A stretch of DNA of 64,000 nt from Coriobacteriia bacterium (lineage in GTDB: Bacteria; Actinomycetota; Coriobacteriia; Coriobacteriales; Atopobiaceae), in assembly GCA_030530145.1 (NCBI GenBank), contig JAUMVN010000008.1, forward strand, positions 1 through 64,000, given 5' to 3'. Within the stretch, counting starts at the first letter, position 1; each line of letters begins with the position of its first letter. Below the pieces are notes generated by a model, which saw only the letters and a list, made by a program, of their open reading frames with translations, was not told where the DNA came from and ran no database searches. Below are positions 1 through 37,366 of the stretch, one piece after another. The translations under genes were made by a program, and so were the position numbers.

Positions 1-2957
1 AGCACGCCGCCGTCGCCGGCTATGACGATGCCTCAACCTACGTGGATCTCGGCAATTACGCCCACTTCACCACCGAGGCCGGCTACGTCTTGCGCGGTGG
101 CATGAAGGACTCCGCTGGCGACGTCTACTATGCCGACAACGACGGCAGACTCTGGGAGTCCGGTTGGGTCATCACTGCTGACGTCACCGGTGACCTCGAG
201 CGTTACTGGATGCATGAATACAAGGCTGTTAGAGGGTCCCTGGTTTCCACGGACAACGGTTATTCTTATGCTGCTTCTGACGGCAGAATTGTACGAGGAC
301 ATCTTAAAGTCGATAACCTGGTCTACCTTTCTGACAATGACGGGCGTCTTCAGGCGGGCTCGGACGACAAGGGTGGTTGGGTAGTAAGCTCTGCATATGG
401 TCAGGGACTTCAGCGTTATTGGATTGACCCTGAGGCCCACGCTTGCATCGTAGGTTACGATGACGGAGTCTCCTATAACGAGCTTGGCAACTATGCACAT
501 TGCACAACTGAAGAAGGCTATGTTGCCCGTGCCGCCGCTCGCGTTGGGAATCGAGTTTATCTTGGGGACAACGACGGTAAGCTTCTTGCCAGGGGAGATG
601 GCGATGATGGCTCCGGCTGGCTTGTAAGCTCTGCTTATGGCCAGGGGCTTCAGCGTTATTGGGTTGAGGTGGGCGGCTGGGCCCAGATTGGTTACTCCTC
701 GAGTGGTTGGGGTCACTACACCACGTCGGCCGGCTATGTTGCTCGCGATAAGCATCTTGGCGAGGACGGCTATGTCTATTTAGCCAACAACGATGGTCTT
801 CTTGAGACCGGGGACAAAGACGGGTGGCTGGTCACGGCGGCATATGATGGTTCGCTGCAGCGCTATCGTATTGATTGCGAGGCGCACGCATGTGTTCCCG
901 GCGGCTTTTCAATTGGGGATTACGATTTCTATACTTTACCGACGGTGGGCTGGGTGCTTAGGGGCACGGCCACCGTTGGTGATCGAACTTGGTATGCGGA
1001 TAACGACGGTCGTATTATCAACGCGGTCTTAGCCTCCGCTGCTGTTAAGAAGTCAGGTGATGCCACCAATATCGAGAGCACCTACGTTGGGGACACTATG
1101 TACCTGTTCCTACCGTCGTATGCCTCTCTTTCTAAGGTGCCTATTGCCTTGCTCAGGTGGAGTGGCGCGACGGATATTTATCTGAGTGGCTCTGACAATG
1201 GGGCCTACAAGTTGTACGAAACGTTTACGGACGTAGACATCGAGTCTCTTTCCGAGAATAAATTGGGTAATGGCGCCCGCCTGCTCTATTACAAAACTTC
1301 TTCTGGGTCTATTACACACAAACTTGCGGTGATGCTGTCTTCTGACGTTACCTCGGTTTTTGTCCTGAGCGTTGATAGGGATAATGAAGGCCGTAATTTT
1401 GTTGAGGCTAGCTATGATCACACCGCGAAGGCGAGCGTAGCTGTGGTCGTAGTGGCTTCCGACGGCACAGTGCTTTACAACAAAGACGACGTCACTTCTG
1501 GCTCTACGTCCACTATTAAGGGTCGCGGTAACACGACATGGCATAGTGGCTCCAAAAAACCCTATCAGATATCGCTCAATAAGAAAGCCGACCTGCTGGG
1601 TACCGGGAATTCCGACAATGCAAAGAAGAAGTGGGTATTGCTTGCCAACGCGAGTGACGTTACGCTTCTCCGGAACACGATTGCGTATAACCTTGCCCTT
1701 GAGTTTGGCGTTGGCGCCATGGAGAGTGCGCCTGCGGACCTTTGGTATGACGGTGAATACCGCGGATCTTACTTGCTTTGTGAAAAGGTAGAGGTTAACG
1801 GCGGCCGCGTTGATATCTATGATCTTGAGTCAGACATTGAAGACGCCAATGACGGTGTCGACCTGGATAGGCTGCCTATCAAGAAGTCCACTAATAAATA
1901 TGGCAATGAGTTCCAGTACGTTGTTGGCGTTAAGGATCCGGTGGATTATTCAGGTGGCTATCTGCTTGAGACCGACTCTGCTTACTACGCAAATGAGGCT
2001 TGCTATTTTAAGAGCTCCCGTGGCTATGTGGTCGTAAAGAGCCCGGAGTTCTGTTCGGAGAATGCCATGCGCTATATTAGCGAGGCGTTCCAGGCGGCTC
2101 TCAACCAGCTGGAGAATGGGGGCGCGGGTGATTTTACCTTCGATGTTGCTTCTCTTTCGAAGGTTTACCTGATTAATGAGTACCTTAAGAACTGCGATTT
2201 CGGCTTTAGCTCAACTTATTACTATATCGATCGTGATGGCAGGTCTTTTGTCGCCTCTCCGGTTTGGGACTTTGATTCCTCGATGGGGAACAGAAACGGT
2301 ACAGATCGGTTTTTCTCATACTCGAGCTATATCAATAATGATGCTATTTGGATGTTGAATAACAACAAGGTCCAAACAGCGGTCAAATCTGCCTATAAGG
2401 ACTTTTCTTCGCTTATTCATGATGTGCTGCTTGGCGATACTGGTGCGGTTGGGGCAAACGGCATCCTTCACTCGCTCGACTACTATCGAAGGACTATCGA
2501 TAACTCCGAGAAGATGGATGAGGTTATCTGGGGGCTTTCCGCATTCGGCAACGACCATCAGCCTTACTCTACCTATGATCGCAATTATGAGTATTTGGCC
2601 GAGTGGCTCGAGAACCGCATTAATTGGCTTGACAAGGCGATGCCGTCTCTTAACGGAGCGGTGAACACTTGGGAGCCGATATATAACGGCGTTAATTACC
2701 TCCTGGTATTCGATGCGCAATACTACAAAGAAATGAACCCCGACGTTGTTTCTGCGCTTGGTGATTCTGACGAGGCGGCGTTCAATCATTTTGTGACGTA
2801 TGGAATGAGTGAGGGCCGTGTTTCGAGCCGCAACTTCAACGTGCGTAAGTACGCTGACCTCAATAGCGATCTGCGTTCGGCGTTCGGGTCTAATTGGGCG
2901 GCTTACTACACCCACTATCTGACGTACGGTTTCTACGAGGGGCGCTATGCGAAGTAG
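1..2957 (+). CDS. Repeat-anchored CotH-kinase surface protein (5' end outside window)
   Basis: The reading frame is already open at base 3 (it reads HAAVAGYDDASTYVDLGNYAHF), so the apparent GTG start at 42 is not the real start and the N-terminus, including any signal peptide, lies left of the window. The visible protein begins with about four surface repeats of the type GWVVSSAYGQGLQRYW ... YAHFTT..GYVLRG ... ADNDG. From about residue 435 (counted from base 42) a CotH kinase domain follows: IKGRGNTTW, the KKPYQISLNKK lysine region, GEYRGSYLLCEKVEVNGGRVDI, and the metal-binding WDFDSSMGN near residue 741. The last ~90 residues hold two copies of a Y..MNPDV..A.G....A..HF..YG..EGR module. CotH proteins are atypical protein kinases first known from spore coats; here the context is a secreted wall protein. 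Codon use is less GC-biased than in the rml genes. Confidence 0.9.
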   Translation, partial: HAAVAGYDDASTYVDLGNYAHFTTEAGYVLRGGMKDSAGDVYYADNDGRLWESGWVITADVTGDLERYWMHEYKAVRGSLVSTDNGYSYAASDGRIVRGHLKVDNLVYLSDNDGRLQAGSDDKGGWVVSSAYGQGLQRYWIDPEAHACIVGYDDGVSYNELGNYAHCTTEEGYVARAAARVGNRVYLGDNDGKLLARGDGDDGSGWLVSSAYGQGLQRYWVEVGGWAQIGYSSSGWGHYTTSAGYVARDKHLGEDGYVYLANNDGLLETGDKDGWLVTAAYDGSLQRYRIDCEAHACVPGGFSIGDYDFYTLPTVGWVLRGTATVGDRTWYADNDGRIINAVLASAAVKKSGDATNIESTYVGDTMYLFLPSYASLSKVPIALLRWSGATDIYLSGSDNGAYKLYETFTDVDIESLSENKLGNGARLLYYKTSSGSITHKLAVMLSSDVTSVFVLSVDRDNEGRNFVEASYDHTAKASVAVVVVASDGTVLYNKDDVTSGSTSTIKGRGNTTWHSGSKKPYQISLNKKADLLGTGNSDNAKKKWVLLANASDVTLLRNTIAYNLALEFGVGAMESAPADLWYDGEYRGSYLLCEKVEVNGGRVDIYDLESDIEDANDGVDLDRLPIKKSTNKYGNEFQYVVGVKDPVDYSGGYLLETDSAYYANEACYFKSSRGYVVVKSPEFCSENAMRYISEAFQAALNQLENGGAGDFTFDVASLSKVYLINEYLKNCDFGFSSTYYYIDRDGRSFVASPVWDFDSSMGNRNGTDRFFSYSSYINNDAIWMLNNNKVQTAVKSAYKDFSSLIHDVLLGDTGAVGANGILHSLDYYRRTIDNSEKMDEVIWGLSAFGNDHQPYSTYDRNYEYLAEWLENRINWLDKAMPSLNGAVNTWEPIYNGVNYLLVFDAQYYKEMNPDVVSALGDSDEAAFNHFVTYGMSEGRVSSRNFNVRKYADLNSDLRSAFGSNWAAYYTHYLTYGFYEGRYAK

Positions 2958-3645: not shown

Positions 3646-3680
3646 TGCGTCAGCAAATCGTGCGTTGATTCGGAGCCGAT

Positions 3681-5852
3681 ATGTATAGAGAGCGCGTTAT
3701 AGCGTCCAGCCTCGCGGTCACCGCTGGGCTGGGCCTTGTTTTAGGGGTTGGTCCCGCCGTCGCTCATGCCGAGGAGGCTCTCAGCGTGAGCGACGAGGTC
3801 CAGGCCGACGCCGCGGAACAGGCGGATGAGGTCAGTGCTTCAACTTTGGTTTCGACGGGGGAGGACGATGCCTCCGCGATTGCCGGGTCGGAGGATTCCG
3901 TCGCGACGGGCGAGGATGATGTCGCTGCGGTCGTCGAGGAGTCATCGCTTGATGCTGCGGCGCTCGCGCCGGCATCCGATTCTGTCTTGGCCTCTCTGCC
4001 CCAGGTCAGTGGTTGGGTGCTCGAAGGGGACTCCTGGTGCTATTACGACGCCGACGGCTCCAAGTATACGGGGTGGCTCGTTACCGGCGAGGCCCCGGGC
4101 GATTCCGGTGCCGGCCTTCAGCGCTATTGGCTCGATTCGGAGGGGCGCCTTGCTGTAGGCAGGCTCATTTCCTCCGAGGAGGCTGGTTGGTGGGCATACG
4201 CCACGGACGCTGGTTACGTCGTCCGGGGCTCGTACGCCGATGGGTCTGGCGCTGTGTACCTGGCCGACAATGACGGCGTGCTCGCCGGCGGCGAGTCCGG
4301 CGGCTGGGTCGTCTCGTCCGCCTACGGGCAAGGTCTCCAGCGCTATTGGATTGGTGATTCGACCCATGCAGCCGTCGAGGGCTTCTCCACCGACGGATGG
4401 GCTCATTACACGACGAGTGCAGGGTATGTTCTGCGAGGCGCCGCGACGACTTCCGACGGCGCTATGCGCATAGCCAATAATGACGGGCTTCTCCAGGAGT
4501 CCGGCTGGTGCGTGACCACCGGCTTCGGCCAAGGCTTGCAACGTTATTGGTTTGAGGGCTATCAAGTTGCCAAGGGGCAGCTTGTCCACGTTTCGCAAGG
4601 CATCTGGACCTACGCGCGCCCTGAGGGCTATGTGGTCCGTGGATCGTATTCCGACGGATCTGGTTCCATCTATCTGGCCGATAACGACGGCGTGCTCGCC
4701 GGCGGCGAGTCCGGTGGCTGGGTCGTCTCGGCCGCTTACGGGCAGGGTTTGCAGCGCTACTGGATTGACGGGTCGGCTCATGCGGCTAAGGCCGGCTATT
4801 CGGGTGACGGTTGGTCGCATTACACTACCGGCCAGGGTTACGTCCTTCGCGGGGCCGCGACCATTGATGGGCGGAAGGTGTATGCCGATAACGACGGCGC
4901 ATTCAAGACCGGTTGGCTCGTCACCTCTGGTTTCGGCCAAGGTCTCCAGCGCTATTGGCTGGACGAGGGCAAGGTCGCCACGTCTCGGCTAGTCAGCGCC
5001 GCAGAGGCTGGCTACAACGCATATGCTCAGGCAGATGGGCGGATTCTGCGCGGGAAGCTCCGCTATGGCGACGGGATGCTCGTCGCGGACAACAACGGTC
5101 GGCTGGCTTGGACCTCGGGCGACGGCGGTTGGGTCATCACCGCCGATTATGACGGCTCCATGCAGCGGTATTGGGTCGACGACTCCCCGGGCGATGGACT
5201 CATGGGCGCTCATATCGGGGCGTTCACGGTCGCCGGCCAGAACTACTATGGGCGCGACGACCAAGGTTACGTCGTTCGCGGCGAGTGGGCGGCCCCGAAC
5301 GGTACCGTTTACTACGGCGATAACGACGGCGTGGTGACCGAGGGCCAGCCCATCATGGGCGCTTCTCGCCATACCGTCGCCCAGATGGTTGCGTACTACA
5401 AGGCCACGGGGAAGGCGTACCCCTCTGCGGCCCTGGGCAGGGGAGGGGCCTCGTCCATCGAGACGTTTTGTGCCATTCTCTGTGAGGAAGCTGCCGCTGA
5501 GGGCGTGCGGGCGGAGGTCGTCTTTGCCCAGGCCATGCTCGAGACCGCGTGGCTTCAGTTCGGCGGCGATGTGCGCGTGGAGCAGTTTAACTTTGCCGGC
5601 ATCGGGGCCACGGGAGGCGGAGTGCCAGGGAATTCCTTTGCGGACGTGCGCACGGGCCTGCGGGCTCAGGTCCAGCACCTGAAGGCCTATGCGAGCACCG
5701 ATGCGCTCAACAATTCCTGCGTCGACCCGCGCTTCTCGTACGTCTCGCGCGGCTGTGCCCCTACCATAGAGAAGCTTTCGAACAAGTGGGCCGCGAGCTC
5801 CACCTACGGCGAGGATATGAAGAGGGTCCTGAACGGGCTCTCGAGCTACTAA
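3681..5852 (+). CDS. Exported repeat protein with C-terminal glucosaminidase domain
   Basis: The start at ATG 3681 gives a signal peptide (MYRERVIASS... ending AVAHAEE, about 30 residues) followed by an acidic, Ala/Ser/Asp-rich linker to about residue 105. Six surface repeats follow (six copies of LQRYW or MQRYW, spaced about 70 residues). From about residue 600 there is a GH73-like N-acetylglucosaminidase domain: AEGVRAEVVFAQAMLETAW with the likely catalytic Glu621, then FNFAGIG and SFADVRTGLRAQVQHLKAY, as in LytG/FlgJ-type enzymes. It should cut glycan strands of peptidoglycan outside the cell, with the repeats holding it on the wall. The next gene, an amidase with the same repeats, begins 10 bp downstream with its own AAGGAG site, so the two are almost certainly co-transcribed. 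Confidence 0.92.
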   Translation: MYRERVIASSLAVTAGLGLVLGVGPAVAHAEEALSVSDEVQADAAEQADEVSASTLVSTGEDDASAIAGSEDSVATGEDDVAAVVEESSLDAAALAPASDSVLASLPQVSGWVLEGDSWCYYDADGSKYTGWLVTGEAPGDSGAGLQRYWLDSEGRLAVGRLISSEEAGWWAYATDAGYVVRGSYADGSGAVYLADNDGVLAGGESGGWVVSSAYGQGLQRYWIGDSTHAAVEGFSTDGWAHYTTSAGYVLRGAATTSDGAMRIANNDGLLQESGWCVTTGFGQGLQRYWFEGYQVAKGQLVHVSQGIWTYARPEGYVVRGSYSDGSGSIYLADNDGVLAGGESGGWVVSAAYGQGLQRYWIDGSAHAAKAGYSGDGWSHYTTGQGYVLRGAATIDGRKVYADNDGAFKTGWLVTSGFGQGLQRYWLDEGKVATSRLVSAAEAGYNAYAQADGRILRGKLRYGDGMLVADNNGRLAWTSGDGGWVITADYDGSMQRYWVDDSPGDGLMGAHIGAFTVAGQNYYGRDDQGYVVRGEWAAPNGTVYYGDNDGVVTEGQPIMGASRHTVAQMVAYYKATGKAYPSAALGRGGASSIETFCAILCEEAAAEGVRAEVVFAQAMLETAWLQFGGDVRVEQFNFAGIGATGGGVPGNSFADVRTGLRAQVQHLKAYASTDALNNSCVDPRFSYVSRGCAPTIEKLSNKWAASSTYGEDMKRVLNGLSSY

Positions 5853-5862
5853 GGAGAAGGCT

Positions 5863-8430
5863 ATGGACGAGAAGACCCGTGCCATCGCGGCTCCCTTTGC
5901 CGCCGCTGCGCTTGTGGGTGCGCTTGGTACCTGCGGGGTCTCCACAGCGATGGCCCAGGAGGTCGACGCTGTGCCGGAAGCGGGCGCTACGGTCGCGGCG
6001 GTCGAGGTCGCTGGGGAAGCCGAGCCGGCTGACGCGACGACCGTCGACGATGCGGCAAACGAGGCTACGAGCAAGGAAGACTCTTCGCGGGGCAACGAGG
6101 GCCAGGTCAGCGAGGCCGATACGGATACTTCTGCGGATGCTGATGTGAATTCTGACGCCGATGCCGACGCGAGTGAAGGCAGCGCCGGCGCCGATGCCGA
6201 TTCGGTTGCGAACGCTGCGGTCGACGGGCAGGCCACCGGAAACGTCTCTGAAGTTGTCCCTGCCTCAAAGGGCACGGAGGAGATTTCCCTTATTGCCAAC
6301 AATGAGTCCCCGGTCGCAGAGCCAAAGGTTGTCTCGCTTCCTTCCGTCGGTTGGACGGGGGACGCCTATTGGGACGGTTCCGTCGATGAGTCCGGGGCGG
6401 CTAAGATCTATACCGGCTATGTCGTCGATTCACACGACAGCCGTGGGCTTCAGCGGTATTGGATCCAGAACGGTTACCTGTTCCGCAACGGGCTTTTCGA
6501 CTCGCTCGACGGCAACTTCGGCTATGCCCTCAAGGACGGTTGCGTCCTCAGGGGCGTGTACACGGACGACGAGGGGAACATCTACCTCGCCGACAACGAC
6601 GGCAAGCTCGCTGGCGGTCAGAACGGCGGCTGGGTCGTCTCCTCGGCCTATGGCCAGGGCCTCCAGCGCTATTGGATCGACCCCGACACGCACGCCGCCA
6701 AGGAAGGCTTCTCGTCCGACGGCTGGGCACACTACACAACGCAGGGCGGCTATGTCCTGCGTGGGCAGTCGCAGACTTCCGACGGGGTCAAGCGCTCTGC
6801 GAACAATGACGGGCTTCTTTCCGAGTCCGGCTGGCTCGTGACCTCAGCCTATGGGCAGGGACTGCAGCGCTACTGGCTCGAGGACTACAAGGTGGCCACG
6901 GACGAACTCGTCCACGTTCGCGAGGGCGTGTGGACGTATGCCCGTCCCGAGGGCTACGTGGTCCGAGGAGCGTATTCCGCTGGCGGACAGGTCTACCTTG
7001 CGGACAACGACGGCAAGCTTGCCGGCGGCGAGTCCGGCGGCTGGGTCGTCTCCGCTTCCTATGGGCAGGGCTTTCAGCGGTATTGGATCGACTCTGACTC
7101 CCACGCCGCCATCGAGGGGTACTCCGAGGACGGGTACGCGCACTACACCACCTCGAATGGTTATGTGCTGCGCGGTACGGGTTCTTTCTCGGATGGCAGG
7201 CGCTACGCCGATAATGACGGCAGGCTTAAGGAATCCGGCTGGCTCGTGACCTCCGCTCTTGGTCAGGGGCTGCAGCGCTACTGGTTCGTCGATTACAAGG
7301 TCGCTTCCGAGGGCGTGTACCAGACTGGCGCTTCTTCGTGGACCTATGCGACTGCTGCTGGGTACGTGCTGCGCGGCTCCCTGCCTAAGGGCGGACTCGT
7401 CTACCTAGCGGACAACGACGGGCTTCTTGCCGGCGGCGCCAAGGGCGGCTGGGTCGTCTCGGGTAATTACGGCCAAGGCCTGCAGCGCTACTGGATCGAT
7501 GCGGAGAAGCATGCCGCAGTCGAAGGCTTCTCGACCGATGGCTGGGCACACTACACCACGTCGGCCGGCTATGTCCTGCGCGGCGGCATGGCAACCTCGA
7601 ACGGCTTGCTTCTTGCGGACAACGAGGGTCGTTTGATGGAGCATTACGCTACGTCGGCCGGGTGGTTCATCTCCGGTTGCATGACCAGCGGGGCCGCGCA
7701 GCGCTATTACCTGGTCGAGGCGGACGGGCATCTTTACGCGAAGACGGGCCTCTTTAGCGCTGAGCTCACGGCCGGCGCCGGCGCGCAGCAGTTCTACGGG
7801 AAACCGAACGTCGGCTACGTCTCCCGTAACGAGCGGCTTGTCATAAACGGGAAGACCTACGCGTCCAACAACGATGGTGTGCTCAAGGTTTCTCTCGTCC
7901 GCATCTATCTGGATGCTGGGCACGGCTGGAACAGTTCGTATGACGGCGCGTACGACGGTGGTGCCGAGGGCTGCGGGTACCAGGAGGCGCAGCTCACGCG
8001 CGAGCTCGTGCAGCTGATCGCTGACATTGCGTCGCAGAAGTACGGTCTTGATGTCGTTACGGACAATGCTGTCAACTACCGTCAGCGTAACCAGGACGCT
8101 TACGACAAGGGCTGCAACTACTTTGTGTCCATCCACTTCAACTCCGGCGGCGGCACAGGCTCGGAGAGCTATATCCACTCGCTTCACGCGGCGCCCGGGT
8201 CCTCTCAGCTTCAGTCGATTATGCATAGCAAGCTGATCGAGGGGCTCGGGCTTCGAGACCGCGGCAAGCAGGAGGAGCAATTCGCCGTTTGCGGTGGCAA
8301 GGTCCCGGCTACCCTGTTGGAGATCTGCTTCATCGACAATGCGAGCGACATGGAAACGTACCAAGCTCGTAAGCAGTATTTGGCGGAATGCTTGGCTGCG
8401 GGCCTGTACGAGTATTCTTCGACGCTTTAG
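5863..8430 (+). CDS. Exported repeat protein with N-acetylmuramoyl-L-alanine amidase domain
   Basis: ATG 5863 follows AAGGAGAAGGCT. The product has a signal peptide ending AMAQE (about residue 32), a long acidic Ala/Asp/Glu linker to about residue 150, seven copies of the surface repeat (QRYW/QRYY signatures), and a C-terminal Amidase_3 domain from about residue 677. The zinc-amidase signature is complete: LDAGHG with the first His, the Glu in GYQEAQLTRE, the second His in SIHFNSGG, and the catalytic Glu in LLEICFIDN. It should cleave the bond between muramic acid and L-alanine. Together with the upstream glucosaminidase it forms a two-gene wall-remodelling operon whose products share one targeting module. 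A strong hairpin follows the stop codon. Confidence 0.94.
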   Translation: MDEKTRAIAAPFAAAALVGALGTCGVSTAMAQEVDAVPEAGATVAAVEVAGEAEPADATTVDDAANEATSKEDSSRGNEGQVSEADTDTSADADVNSDADADASEGSAGADADSVANAAVDGQATGNVSEVVPASKGTEEISLIANNESPVAEPKVVSLPSVGWTGDAYWDGSVDESGAAKIYTGYVVDSHDSRGLQRYWIQNGYLFRNGLFDSLDGNFGYALKDGCVLRGVYTDDEGNIYLADNDGKLAGGQNGGWVVSSAYGQGLQRYWIDPDTHAAKEGFSSDGWAHYTTQGGYVLRGQSQTSDGVKRSANNDGLLSESGWLVTSAYGQGLQRYWLEDYKVATDELVHVREGVWTYARPEGYVVRGAYSAGGQVYLADNDGKLAGGESGGWVVSASYGQGFQRYWIDSDSHAAIEGYSEDGYAHYTTSNGYVLRGTGSFSDGRRYADNDGRLKESGWLVTSALGQGLQRYWFVDYKVASEGVYQTGASSWTYATAAGYVLRGSLPKGGLVYLADNDGLLAGGAKGGWVVSGNYGQGLQRYWIDAEKHAAVEGFSTDGWAHYTTSAGYVLRGGMATSNGLLLADNEGRLMEHYATSAGWFISGCMTSGAAQRYYLVEADGHLYAKTGLFSAELTAGAGAQQFYGKPNVGYVSRNERLVINGKTYASNNDGVLKVSLVRIYLDAGHGWNSSYDGAYDGGAEGCGYQEAQLTRELVQLIADIASQKYGLDVVTDNAVNYRQRNQDAYDKGCNYFVSIHFNSGGGTGSESYIHSLHAAPGSSQLQSIMHSKLIEGLGLRDRGKQEEQFAVCGGKVPATLLEICFIDNASDMETYQARKQYLAECLAAGLYEYSSTL

Positions 8431-33701: not shown

Positions 33702-36700
33702 ATGATAGGTGAGCTGAGTACTGCACGGCGTTGTGTGTATGCCGGTCTTGCGATCGGTGCTTCTCTGACTTTTTTGACTGCAAGTCCAATCCCTGCTTTG
33801 GCATCGGTTGCGGGGGGGGGCAGCTCTCGATGCCGTAGGGACTGTTTCGACTACCGACAGCGGCCAGCCTGATTCTACCGATGAAACGGACATCGGTATC
33901 GATTCTGCCGCCTTGGATGAATCAGGCGATTTGAATGTTGGTGGTGAGGTAGCCGCTATCGAGAGTGTTGCTAGTGGTGATGCGGCTTTGAATTCCGATG
34001 ACGTCGTTAAGCCGTCTGACGATAGCGGGGAAGCGTCTGAAGATGAACAGCCCTCTTCCGATGTAATGACCGATGGCGATGGCGCCGAACACAACATGTC
34101 TGTCGATGGCGCGACTGCTGCCGTCAAGGCTCAAGCGACGCCTTGTGTCGCAGCAGAGCCTGCCGTTTCTCCTGCGAATGACGCCGAATACGGTCCCGCC
34201 CAATCTTCGACCCATGCCAAGGGCTGGGATGGCGACAACTATTACGACGGCTCTGATGGTGTCTACACAGGCTGGGTCGTCGATGACCACGAGGGCAATC
34301 TTGAGAGGTACTGGGTCGAGTCCGGCAAGCTGTGGCGCGACGGCCTCAAGCGCGCCTCGCTCGGGTACTGGTTCTATTCCCTGTCCAGTGGCCGCGTGCT
34401 GCGGGGGACTTTCTCTGACGGCGAGCTCGTGTATCTTGCCGACAACGACGGGCGGCTCGCCGGCGGCGAGAACGGCGGTTGGGTTGTTTCGAGGGATTAC
34501 GGGCAAGGTCTGCAGCGTTATTACATCGACGCTGATGCGCATGCTGCGGTTGTCGGCTACTCCTCGGAAGGTTACGCCCACTTCACCACCTCTAAGGGTT
34601 ATACGCTGCGGGGTGTCCAGAAGTCCGGAGACGTCGTTTACGCGGCCGACAACGACGGCAGGCTCGGCGGCGGGCGTTCCGGCTGGGTCGTCAGCTCAGA
34701 CTTCGGCCAGGGTCTGCAGCGCTATTGGTTCGAGGGGGACGGCACCCTCAGGGTTGGATATTCCGAGGACGGCTGGGCCCACTACACCACGTCGGAGGGC
34801 TTTGTCTTGCGCGGTGCCCTCAAGACTACCGACGGCAGCATGTACTACGCCGACAACGACGGAAAGCTCAAGAACTCTGGCTGGCTCGTGACCTCCGGCT
34901 TCGGCCAGGGCCTGCAGCGCTATTGGTTCGCCAACAACAAGGTCGCTTCTGAAGGCCTTTATCAGACCGGTTCCTCGTCGTGGACGTACGCCACGAGCAA
35001 CGGCTACGTCCTGCGCGGGGCTCTTGCCAAGGGCGCGCTCGTCTACCTTGCGGACAACGACGGCCTGGTCGCCGGCGGCGCCAAGGGCGGCTGGGTCGTG
35101 AGCTCGGCTTATGGCCAGGGGCTTCAGCGTTACTGGATCGAGGCGGATGAGCACGCCGCGAAGGTCGGTTACTCGACGAACGGCTGGGCGCACTACACCA
35201 CGAGCAGCGGCTACGTCCTGCGCGGCGTCTACAAGGACGGAGACGTCGTCTACGCCGCCGACAACGACGGCAGGCTCGGCGGCGGGCGGTCCGGCTGGGT
35301 CGTCAGCTCAGACTTCGGCCAGGGCCTGCAGCGCTACTGGTTCGAGGAGGACGGCACCCTGAAGGTCGGTTACTCTTTGGGTGGCTGGGACCATTACACC
35401 ACCTCGGAGGGATACGTTGCTCGCGGAAAGTATCGGGCTTCTGACGGCAGCTTCTATCTTGCGGATAACGACGGTAAGCTCGAGTCTCCGGGCTGGCATG
35501 TGACCTCGGCTTACGACGGCAGCATTCAGCGCTACTACATCGATAACACGACTCATGCGGCGAAGACGGGTCTCTTCCAGGTGTCGGGCGACTGGTATTT
35601 TGGCCTCTACGATACGGGTTATGAGCTCCGCGGGCGTGAGTGGCTCGACGGCGCCTACTATTACGGTGATAATGACGGTAAGTTAGTTCCCGCTTTGAGC
35701 GCCTCGATTGCTTCCGAGGACGGCTCCGCCGCGATATCGACCGCAAAGTTCATTAACGGCGAGGCTTGGCTCTTCCTTCCCGCCAACGCACATTACTCAT
35801 CGTTGAGCCTCTCTGCCCAGAAGTTCGGCGACGCGTCCGAGGCTCAGGTCTCTTTCGACGGCGGCAAGACATGGGTGGATCCCTCAGCGGGCCCGCTCAA
35901 CCTTTCGACCTTGGCCGAGTCTTCCGGCGTGCGCACCATTCTGGTCAGGGCTTCCAGCCGTGCCGCTTCGCATAAGGTCAACATCATGCGCTCCTCCAGC
36001 GTCGCGTCTCTCTTCATCTCGAGCGATGACGTTGTGAACAAGGGGAGGCACTACATCGAGTCCGACCCTGACCACAAGCTCTCCGCCACGGGCGCGCTTC
36101 TTATGGTCGGGGCCGACGGTTCGGTTGTTTATGACGGCAAGCTGAGCCAGATCAAGGGCCGTGGTAACGGTACCTGGATGTGCTCGAAGAAGAGCTATCA
36201 GATCAAGCTCGACAAGAAGTGCGACCTCACGGAGTCCGGGAACAAGGAGAACAAGGCCAAGATCTGGACATTGATCACGGACCGCTTTGATGTCTCCTCC
36301 TCGCGCGACGTGATCGCTTATCACCTGGCGCAGCAGTTCGGGGTCGCGAGCGCCGTTGACTACCGATTCGTGAACCTCTACTACGACGGTGACTACCGCG
36401 GCACCTATCTTGTTTGCGAGAAGGTCCAGATCAACGGTGGCCGCGTGGACATCACCGACCTCGAGGAGCAGAGCGAGAAGCTCAACGGCGATCTTTCCTC
36501 GAAATCGCTGGCGCTTGGAAACAACTCCTACGGTTATGAGCTTAAGTATGCCCAGGGCATGAGCGATCCTTCCGACATCTCCGGCGGATACCTCTTCGAG
36601 CATGAGTATGCCTACGAGCGCTATTCCGGGGAGAGCGCTTACTTTAGCGTCGAGGTTTCCGGGGACGGCGAGATTCAGCACTTCGTCTGCAAGGCTCCCG

Positions 36701-37308
36701 AGGTCTGGTCCTATGCTCAGGCGAATTACCTGAGCTGCCTCGTGCAGGATCTCTTTGATGCTGCGAGGAACGGCGGGGTGGTTCCGAACTGGCGCGGCAG
36801 CTCGCGCGCCGGCAAGCGCACCGATCAGATCCTGGATGTTGATTCTCTTGCCAACGTCTACTGGGTCAACGAGATCATGAAGAACCGCGACGGCTACGTG
36901 TATTCCTCCGGCTACCTCTACAAAGACTCCGATTCCTCGGGTAACGGAAAGCTCACTTTTGGCCCAGCGTGTGACTTCGACCTTTCTTCCGGCAATACCG
37001 TTGGCAACGTCTGGGACTCTAGTCTGCTTGACACCGAGGGTTGGTGGACGCGTGAGAGCGGTATTGTGTGTAATCTTATTATGAACGACCCGTACGTTTA
37101 TGCGGCCGTGCAGCGTGCGAAGAGCCGCGTGATCGCCGCTGCTCGCAACTATCTTAACGGTGGCGCTCTCGCGACCGATATGGGCAACGCCGAGGGCGCT
37201 ATCGCGATGAACCTCAAGGCCTGGCCCGGGCTTTATGAGACCAACGAGACCTGGTCGGACGTGCGTAGTTGGCTTAACCAGCGGCTTGATTGGATTGAGC
37301 GGAACTAG
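33702..37308 (+). CDS. Repeat-anchored CotH surface protein, out of frame at a G9 tract
   Basis: ATG 33702 follows GGGGGG and opens a clear signal peptide (MIGELSTARRCVYAGLAIGA..., cleavage after IPALA). That frame ends within 25 codons, at 33872. The mature protein continues one base later: frame +1 from 33811 to TAG 37308 (about 1,165 residues). The two frames meet at nine G residues, 33812-33820; with eight or eleven G the signal peptide would join ...AGGAALDAVGTVSTTDS. The mature part has an acidic linker, seven surface repeats (LERYW, LQRYY, LQRYW and IQRYY signatures), and a CotH domain with IKGRGNGTW, SYQIKLDKK, DYRGTYLVCEKVQINGGRVDI, and CDFDLSSGN where the usual Trp is Cys. As assembled the product would not be exported. 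Phase variation is the favoured reading; a fixed mutation or homopolymer sequencing error are the alternatives. Confidence 0.85.
33812..33820 (+). repeat. G9 homopolymer, candidate slipped-strand switch
   Basis: Nine consecutive G residues lie directly after the signal-peptide cleavage region of the CotH surface gene. It is the longest single-base run I found in the window. Loss of one G (or gain of two) restores the frame. It is a repeat of the kind used for phase variation by strand slippage. Confidence 0.8.
34630..35346 (+). repeat. In-frame near-identical 100-bp direct repeats inside CotH gene
   Basis: The stretch from 34630 to about 34733 (…GACAACGACGGCAGGCTCGG… onward) recurs from 35242 to about 35345 with only a few base changes. 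The copies start 612 bp apart, an exact multiple of three. Recombination between them would add or remove 204 codons, about three surface repeats, without a frameshift. Confidence 0.7.
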
Positions 37309-37326: not shown

Positions 37327-37366
37327 AGAAGGACCGATCACGCCAAGAGGCGAGGTCGGTCCTTCT
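37327..37366 (+). terminator. Terminator after the CotH gene
   Basis: An 11-bp stem AGAAGGACCGA / TCGGTCCTTCT with an 18-base loop is followed by TGTGT. It separates the surface-protein gene from desulfoferrodoxin. Confidence 0.75.

Follow-up and report, generated by a model that had tools for sequence, protein, structure and literature searches.

The question raised by this locus is whether a signal peptide and the body of a large predicted surface protein, which occupy different reading frames in the assembled sequence, are the two parts of a single gene that is switched by a run of nine guanines lying between them. The window, that is, the complete stretch of 64,000 nucleotides that was analysed, contains a forward-strand frame that opens at ATG 33702 and continues for 56 codons to a TGA stop at 33870–33872, encoding MIGELSTARRCVYAGLAIGASLTFLTASPIPALASVAGGGSSRCRRDCFDYRQRPA. 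The signal peptide specified from this ATG has a typical Gram-positive layout, although it was accepted by eye and fails the strict signal-peptide filter used below. It leads into GCG followed by G8, which together make up a nine-G run at 33812–33820 on the forward strand, directly 3’ of the part encoding the signal peptide; this G9 tract is the proposed site of slippage. The long frame of the same strand (33778–37308, 1,176 codons stop-to-stop) lies one frame off that of the signal peptide, being open from 33778 to 37305 with its stop at 37306–37308, and encodes 1,166 amino acids when counted from TTG 33808. An earlier note on this DNA had described both the division of the signal peptide and a repeat/CotH body between two frames and the nine G residues after the signal peptide, and both descriptions were confirmed. 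A terminator-like inverted repeat, AAGGACCGA/TCGGTCCTT, can be read in the sequence 3’ of the stop codon (37329–37364, forward strand).

When tract lengths of 7 to 11 were tried, the signal-peptide start was joined to the long frame only by n = 8 and n = 11, which agrees with the expectation that G8 or G11 would restore the frame and that G9 is the off state. The window gene is an otherwise intact gene whose frame is set by a homopolymer of at least eight bases. It had also been claimed that the two frames meet exactly at the tract. The residues encoded after the tract favour a junction at that point: GSSRCRRDCFDYRQRPA, in the signal-peptide frame, looks non-native, whereas the other frame gives an ordinary acidic linker. 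The exactness of the claim has to be relaxed, since the frames overlap over 33778–33869, but these residues allow the strong inference that they join at the tract. The sole restart nearby is TTG 33808, which has no visible Shine-Dalgarno sequence and the product of which would be unexported. The proposal that export alone is switched, and not the enzyme itself, did not hold, because in the G9 state translation ends at 56 codons and the whole protein is lost.

Downstream of the G9 tract there are 1,161 intact codons, in which the acidic linker is followed by a series of repeats and, after a connecting segment, by a CotH kinase domain, so that the absence of stops or decay in this frame, already remarked upon, was upheld. 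Approximately seven repeats of about 67 amino acids (GWVVSSxxGQGLQRYW...YxxDNDGxL) occupy 34255–35743, forward strand, with approximate boundaries. The CotH kinase domain (PF08757) lies at 36151–37305 on the same strand (E 4e-18; best stretch residues 782–905), and the profile match of the window protein scored 66.4 bits against a curated cut-off of 23.8. The motifs KGRGN, KK-YQ-KL, EKV and DFD are near-invariant among 12 aligned family sequences, and all are kept in the window protein (KGRGNxTW, KKxYQxKL, EKV, DFD). By profile and motifs the product is identified as a CotH kinase protein with predicted kinase activity; searches of PDB and NCBIfam with the window protein gave no match. The gene might alternatively be a fixed null allele, a young pseudogene in which a long G run has recently undergone a frameshift that is never repaired. 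It is indeed broken by a single frameshift, yet the integrity of both the 1,161 downstream codons and the CotH motifs argues against such an origin.

The repeats of the window protein are homologous, at 57–63% identity, to those of autolysin-like paralogues encoded in the same window. Two such paralogues carry the same repeats together with a Glucosaminidase domain (3669–5849) or an Amidase_3 domain (5833–8427); both are on the forward strand, with an intact signal peptide and no G tract. The repeats of one paralogue, 57% identical to those of the window protein, matched Choline_bind_3 (E 7.5e-9), whereas the window protein itself gave no repeat match. Since they are shared with the Glucosaminidase and Amidase_3 paralogues, one of which matches Choline_bind_3, the repeats are most likely a cell-wall-binding module. 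No PxTG sortase signal was found in the window protein, the C-terminal end of which is the CotH domain, and the protein is probably bound to the wall non-covalently. A CotH paralogue at 54–2303, forward strand, the 5’ end of which lies beyond the contig, is 46% identical to residues 322–1067 of the window protein. The neighbours of the window gene are a divergent glycosyltransferase, a YfhO-type membrane protein and two further GT2 enzymes, indicating that it adjoins probable cell-surface polysaccharide genes.

The possibility that a G9 run stands here by accident of a GC-rich genome was weighed against the distribution of such runs. G runs in the window numbered 47 of length five, three of length six, none of length seven or eight and one of length nine. 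Dinucleotide shuffles of the window yielded several G8 words (3.4 on average against two observed), as an accidental origin would predict, whereas the real runs drop sharply in number with length. The count of long G runs is not above chance; it is their placement that is non-random. Under a strict filter for signal-peptide N-termini, 5 of 28 run/orientation cases of at least nine bases in the genome were accepted, compared with 22 of 832 runs of 4–7 bases, a background drawn from within the window (binomial P ~8e-4). The window gene misses this filter, lies outside the 5/28 and was added by eye as a sixth case. With placement in signal-peptide genes enriched both in this genome and, as set out below, in the family, a chance origin is extremely unlikely.

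G/C runs of at least nine bases number 14 in the genome assembly (2.47 Mb, 57 contigs), and six of them, that of the window gene included, fall within the coding N-terminus of exported proteins. The tract at C4:132431 follows the signal peptide of a VWA protein resembling the tip pilin GBS104 and is in frame. Those of a Cna_B and MBG protein (C30:46136) and a List_Bact_rpt protein (C51:18047) lie in the n-region and are likewise in frame; that of a second List_Bact_rpt protein (C56:59233), also in the n-region, is out of frame and would be in frame as G10 or G7. The remaining tract (C26:113247) is a C9 run about 85 residues into a giant adhesin of at least 2,836 amino acids with 13 FctA domains, and is in frame. 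At the C-termini of the C4, C30, C51 and C56 proteins, PKTGD or PRTGD is followed by a hydrophobic stretch and then a basic tail, as in a sortase signal. A G9 run before a kinase gene at C26:181817 was left out of the set as it is not linked to a signal peptide.

All six N-terminal tracts are exactly nine bases long, four being in frame and two (the window gene and C56) out of frame. A true length of G8, misread in sequencing or assembly, would mean that the protein is always made, and a single assembly in 57 contigs is the sole basis for the G9 call. That four other N-terminal tracts of nine bases are in frame as assembled, with two out, argues against systematic homopolymer miscalling, and a G8 run would still be a tract of the same kind; an error of this type is considered improbable. 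The occurrence of the same tract at the same place in five more surface genes, four of them in frame, likewise counts against the fixed null allele considered above, which is judged very unlikely.

Nine identical bases in a row can provoke transcriptional slippage. Slippage of RNA polymerase, or ribosomal frameshifting, at the G9 tract could thus allow all cells to make some full-length protein, as a minor product, from unchanged DNA, and could coexist with slippage of the DNA itself. Such recoding is not required by the arrangement, given that four of the six genes are in frame at nine, and it is at odds with the difference in tract length between orthologues described below; as the explanation for the locus it is improbable.

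Two further features were observed beside the adhesin genes. In the gene for the FctA adhesin, a second G9 run (113773) is present on the coding strand approximately 265 nt upstream of the ATG, beside the in-frame C9 run, and the pair may possibly form a double switch acting on the frame and on the promoter or leader. The C51 and C30 adhesin genes have a common leader (L091, about 3985–4045, and the L092 leader, minus strand), with an inverted repeat GGCTC...TTTAAGGG...GCC plus GGAAAGAAGGT before the ATG. An Rfam search around the adhesin genes identified tRNAs only, and the C51/C30 leader had no match.

Across 140 genomes of the family, 17 of 85 distinct G9+ runs with ATGA just upstream were in signal-peptide genes, compared with 6 of 220 G4–6 runs (odds ratio 8.9, P 2e-6, strict filter); the enrichment is approximately nine-fold with the strict filter and only two-fold with a loose one. 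As a control, C9 tracts were in signal-peptide genes in 2 of 36 cases (P 0.056 vs G9). Roughly half of the family G9+ signal-peptide genes are in frame and half are one base off. A Pfam scan of ten of them found VWA/FctA, SpaA, Collagen_bind and Cna_B proteins among their products, and the tracts favour surface-structure genes at both levels, that of the single genome and that of the family.

Comparison of tract length across related genomes, a check that the earlier note had recommended, was informative for one of the other loci. The C51 gene has an orthologue in a genome of another genus (G035; 51% identity) with a tract at the same n-region site; the C51 tract is G9 and in frame (ON), whereas that of the G035 orthologue is G8 and out of frame (OFF), and G10 would be in frame. 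In a second orthologue pair (G096/G113) both the G9 and the frame are kept. For the window gene the comparison yielded no tract-bearing orthologue: no tract was present at any readable N-terminus of its CotH homologues in other genera, which makes the candidate switch lineage-specific, having arisen within the lineage. Viral contigs, when scanned for the sequence flanking the tract, contained no match.

Taken together, the five further N-terminal G9/C9 tracts, the enrichment within the family and the difference in tract length between orthologues lend strong circumstantial support to the phase-variable reading that had been proposed. The window gene is a strong candidate for, and is likely to be, a poly-G contingency (phase-variation) locus of the slipped-strand type, one of at least six in the genome. 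As the DNA is replicated, the G9 tract would gain or lose a G through slipped-strand mispairing. At the assembled length of nine, translation from ATG 33702 would cover 56 codons only and the surface protein would be absent, whereas G8 or G11 would place the signal peptide in frame with a secreted protein of approximately 1,200 residues. In this ON state the protein would be bound to the cell wall via its choline-binding-type repeats and would display the CotH kinase domain, while the other loci of the set would switch sortase-type pilins and adhesins. We infer the change of tract length within the population, the location at the cell wall, the kinase activity and a benefit from surface diversity.

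In Campylobacter and Neisseria, poly-G contingency loci undergo slipped-strand frame switching at G runs of about 8–12 bases. They share the mechanism proposed here and differ in having Gram-negative hosts and other target genes. A closer parallel is found in Bifidobacterium breve UCC2003, where Bbr_0113 and Bbr_1889 are sortase-pilus G-tract switches in which a short upstream ORF with a Sec signal is split from a long surface-protein/LPXTG ORF by a G10–G11 tract (PMC9187656). Tract length in B. breve has been shown experimentally to vary in the population and to control pilus formation; across bifidobacterial strains the tract ranges from G8 to G13, and restoration of the frame by a change of length leads to surface display (PMC9187656). 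In both systems a Sec signal and the body of a surface protein are divided by poly-G, and both hosts are gut-type actinomycetes, although the present host belongs to another class. In B. breve the switch acts on the first pilin of a sortase operon, and switching was measured, whereas the candidate target in the window is a CotH kinase/cell-wall-repeat protein; a sortase signal of the B. breve type is carried by the C4, C30, C51 and C56 genes and not by the window gene. In Gardnerella, many G/C tracts of at least eight bases lie near genes for LPXTG/repeat-domain surface proteins, and homopolymer phase variation has been proposed, backed by data showing that lengths differ from colony to colony (9 versus 10) (PMC11287997). 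The Gardnerella tracts are mostly upstream of ORFs, whereas the six described here are inside the coding N-terminus.

The switch type is thus already known, whereas its occurrence in this family and its CotH cargo are new within the literature that was searched. The open-access literature yielded no description of phase variation for Olsenella, Atopobium or Coriobacteriia, nor of a phase-variable CotH protein. On balance, we favour the view that poly-G switches, placed within signal peptides or immediately after them, form a genome-wide and hitherto unreported set in Thermophilibacter’s family, one that diversifies pilins, collagen-binding-type adhesins and, in this species, a cell-wall-bound CotH kinase, such that extracellular phosphorylation would be phase-switched. 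If so, clonal populations of a little-studied gut and oral family would differ in the adhesins, pili and surface enzymes that they show, with a bearing on colonisation, on encounters with phage and the immune system, and on the reading of strain comparisons and ‘pseudogene’ calls.

Further runs were observed in the family genomes. A conserved sequence, ATGAAYGCGYTTGTGARCTGCAAAAACCTARCG, precedes a G9 or G10 run in at least six species belonging to a single genus, and no long open frame accompanies it (L174, L175, L186, L190, L200, L205); two of these loci, when searched against Rfam, gave no match. Matching flanks with different G-run lengths were present in different species, L180 and L189 having G10 and G9, and L213 and L215 having G9 and G11, respectively. 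In three species (G083:C1:139332, G101:C19:11060 and G102:C62:312) ATGAACAGAACA(A) is followed by C9–C11, which may be a poly-C frame switch placed immediately 3’ of a start codon.
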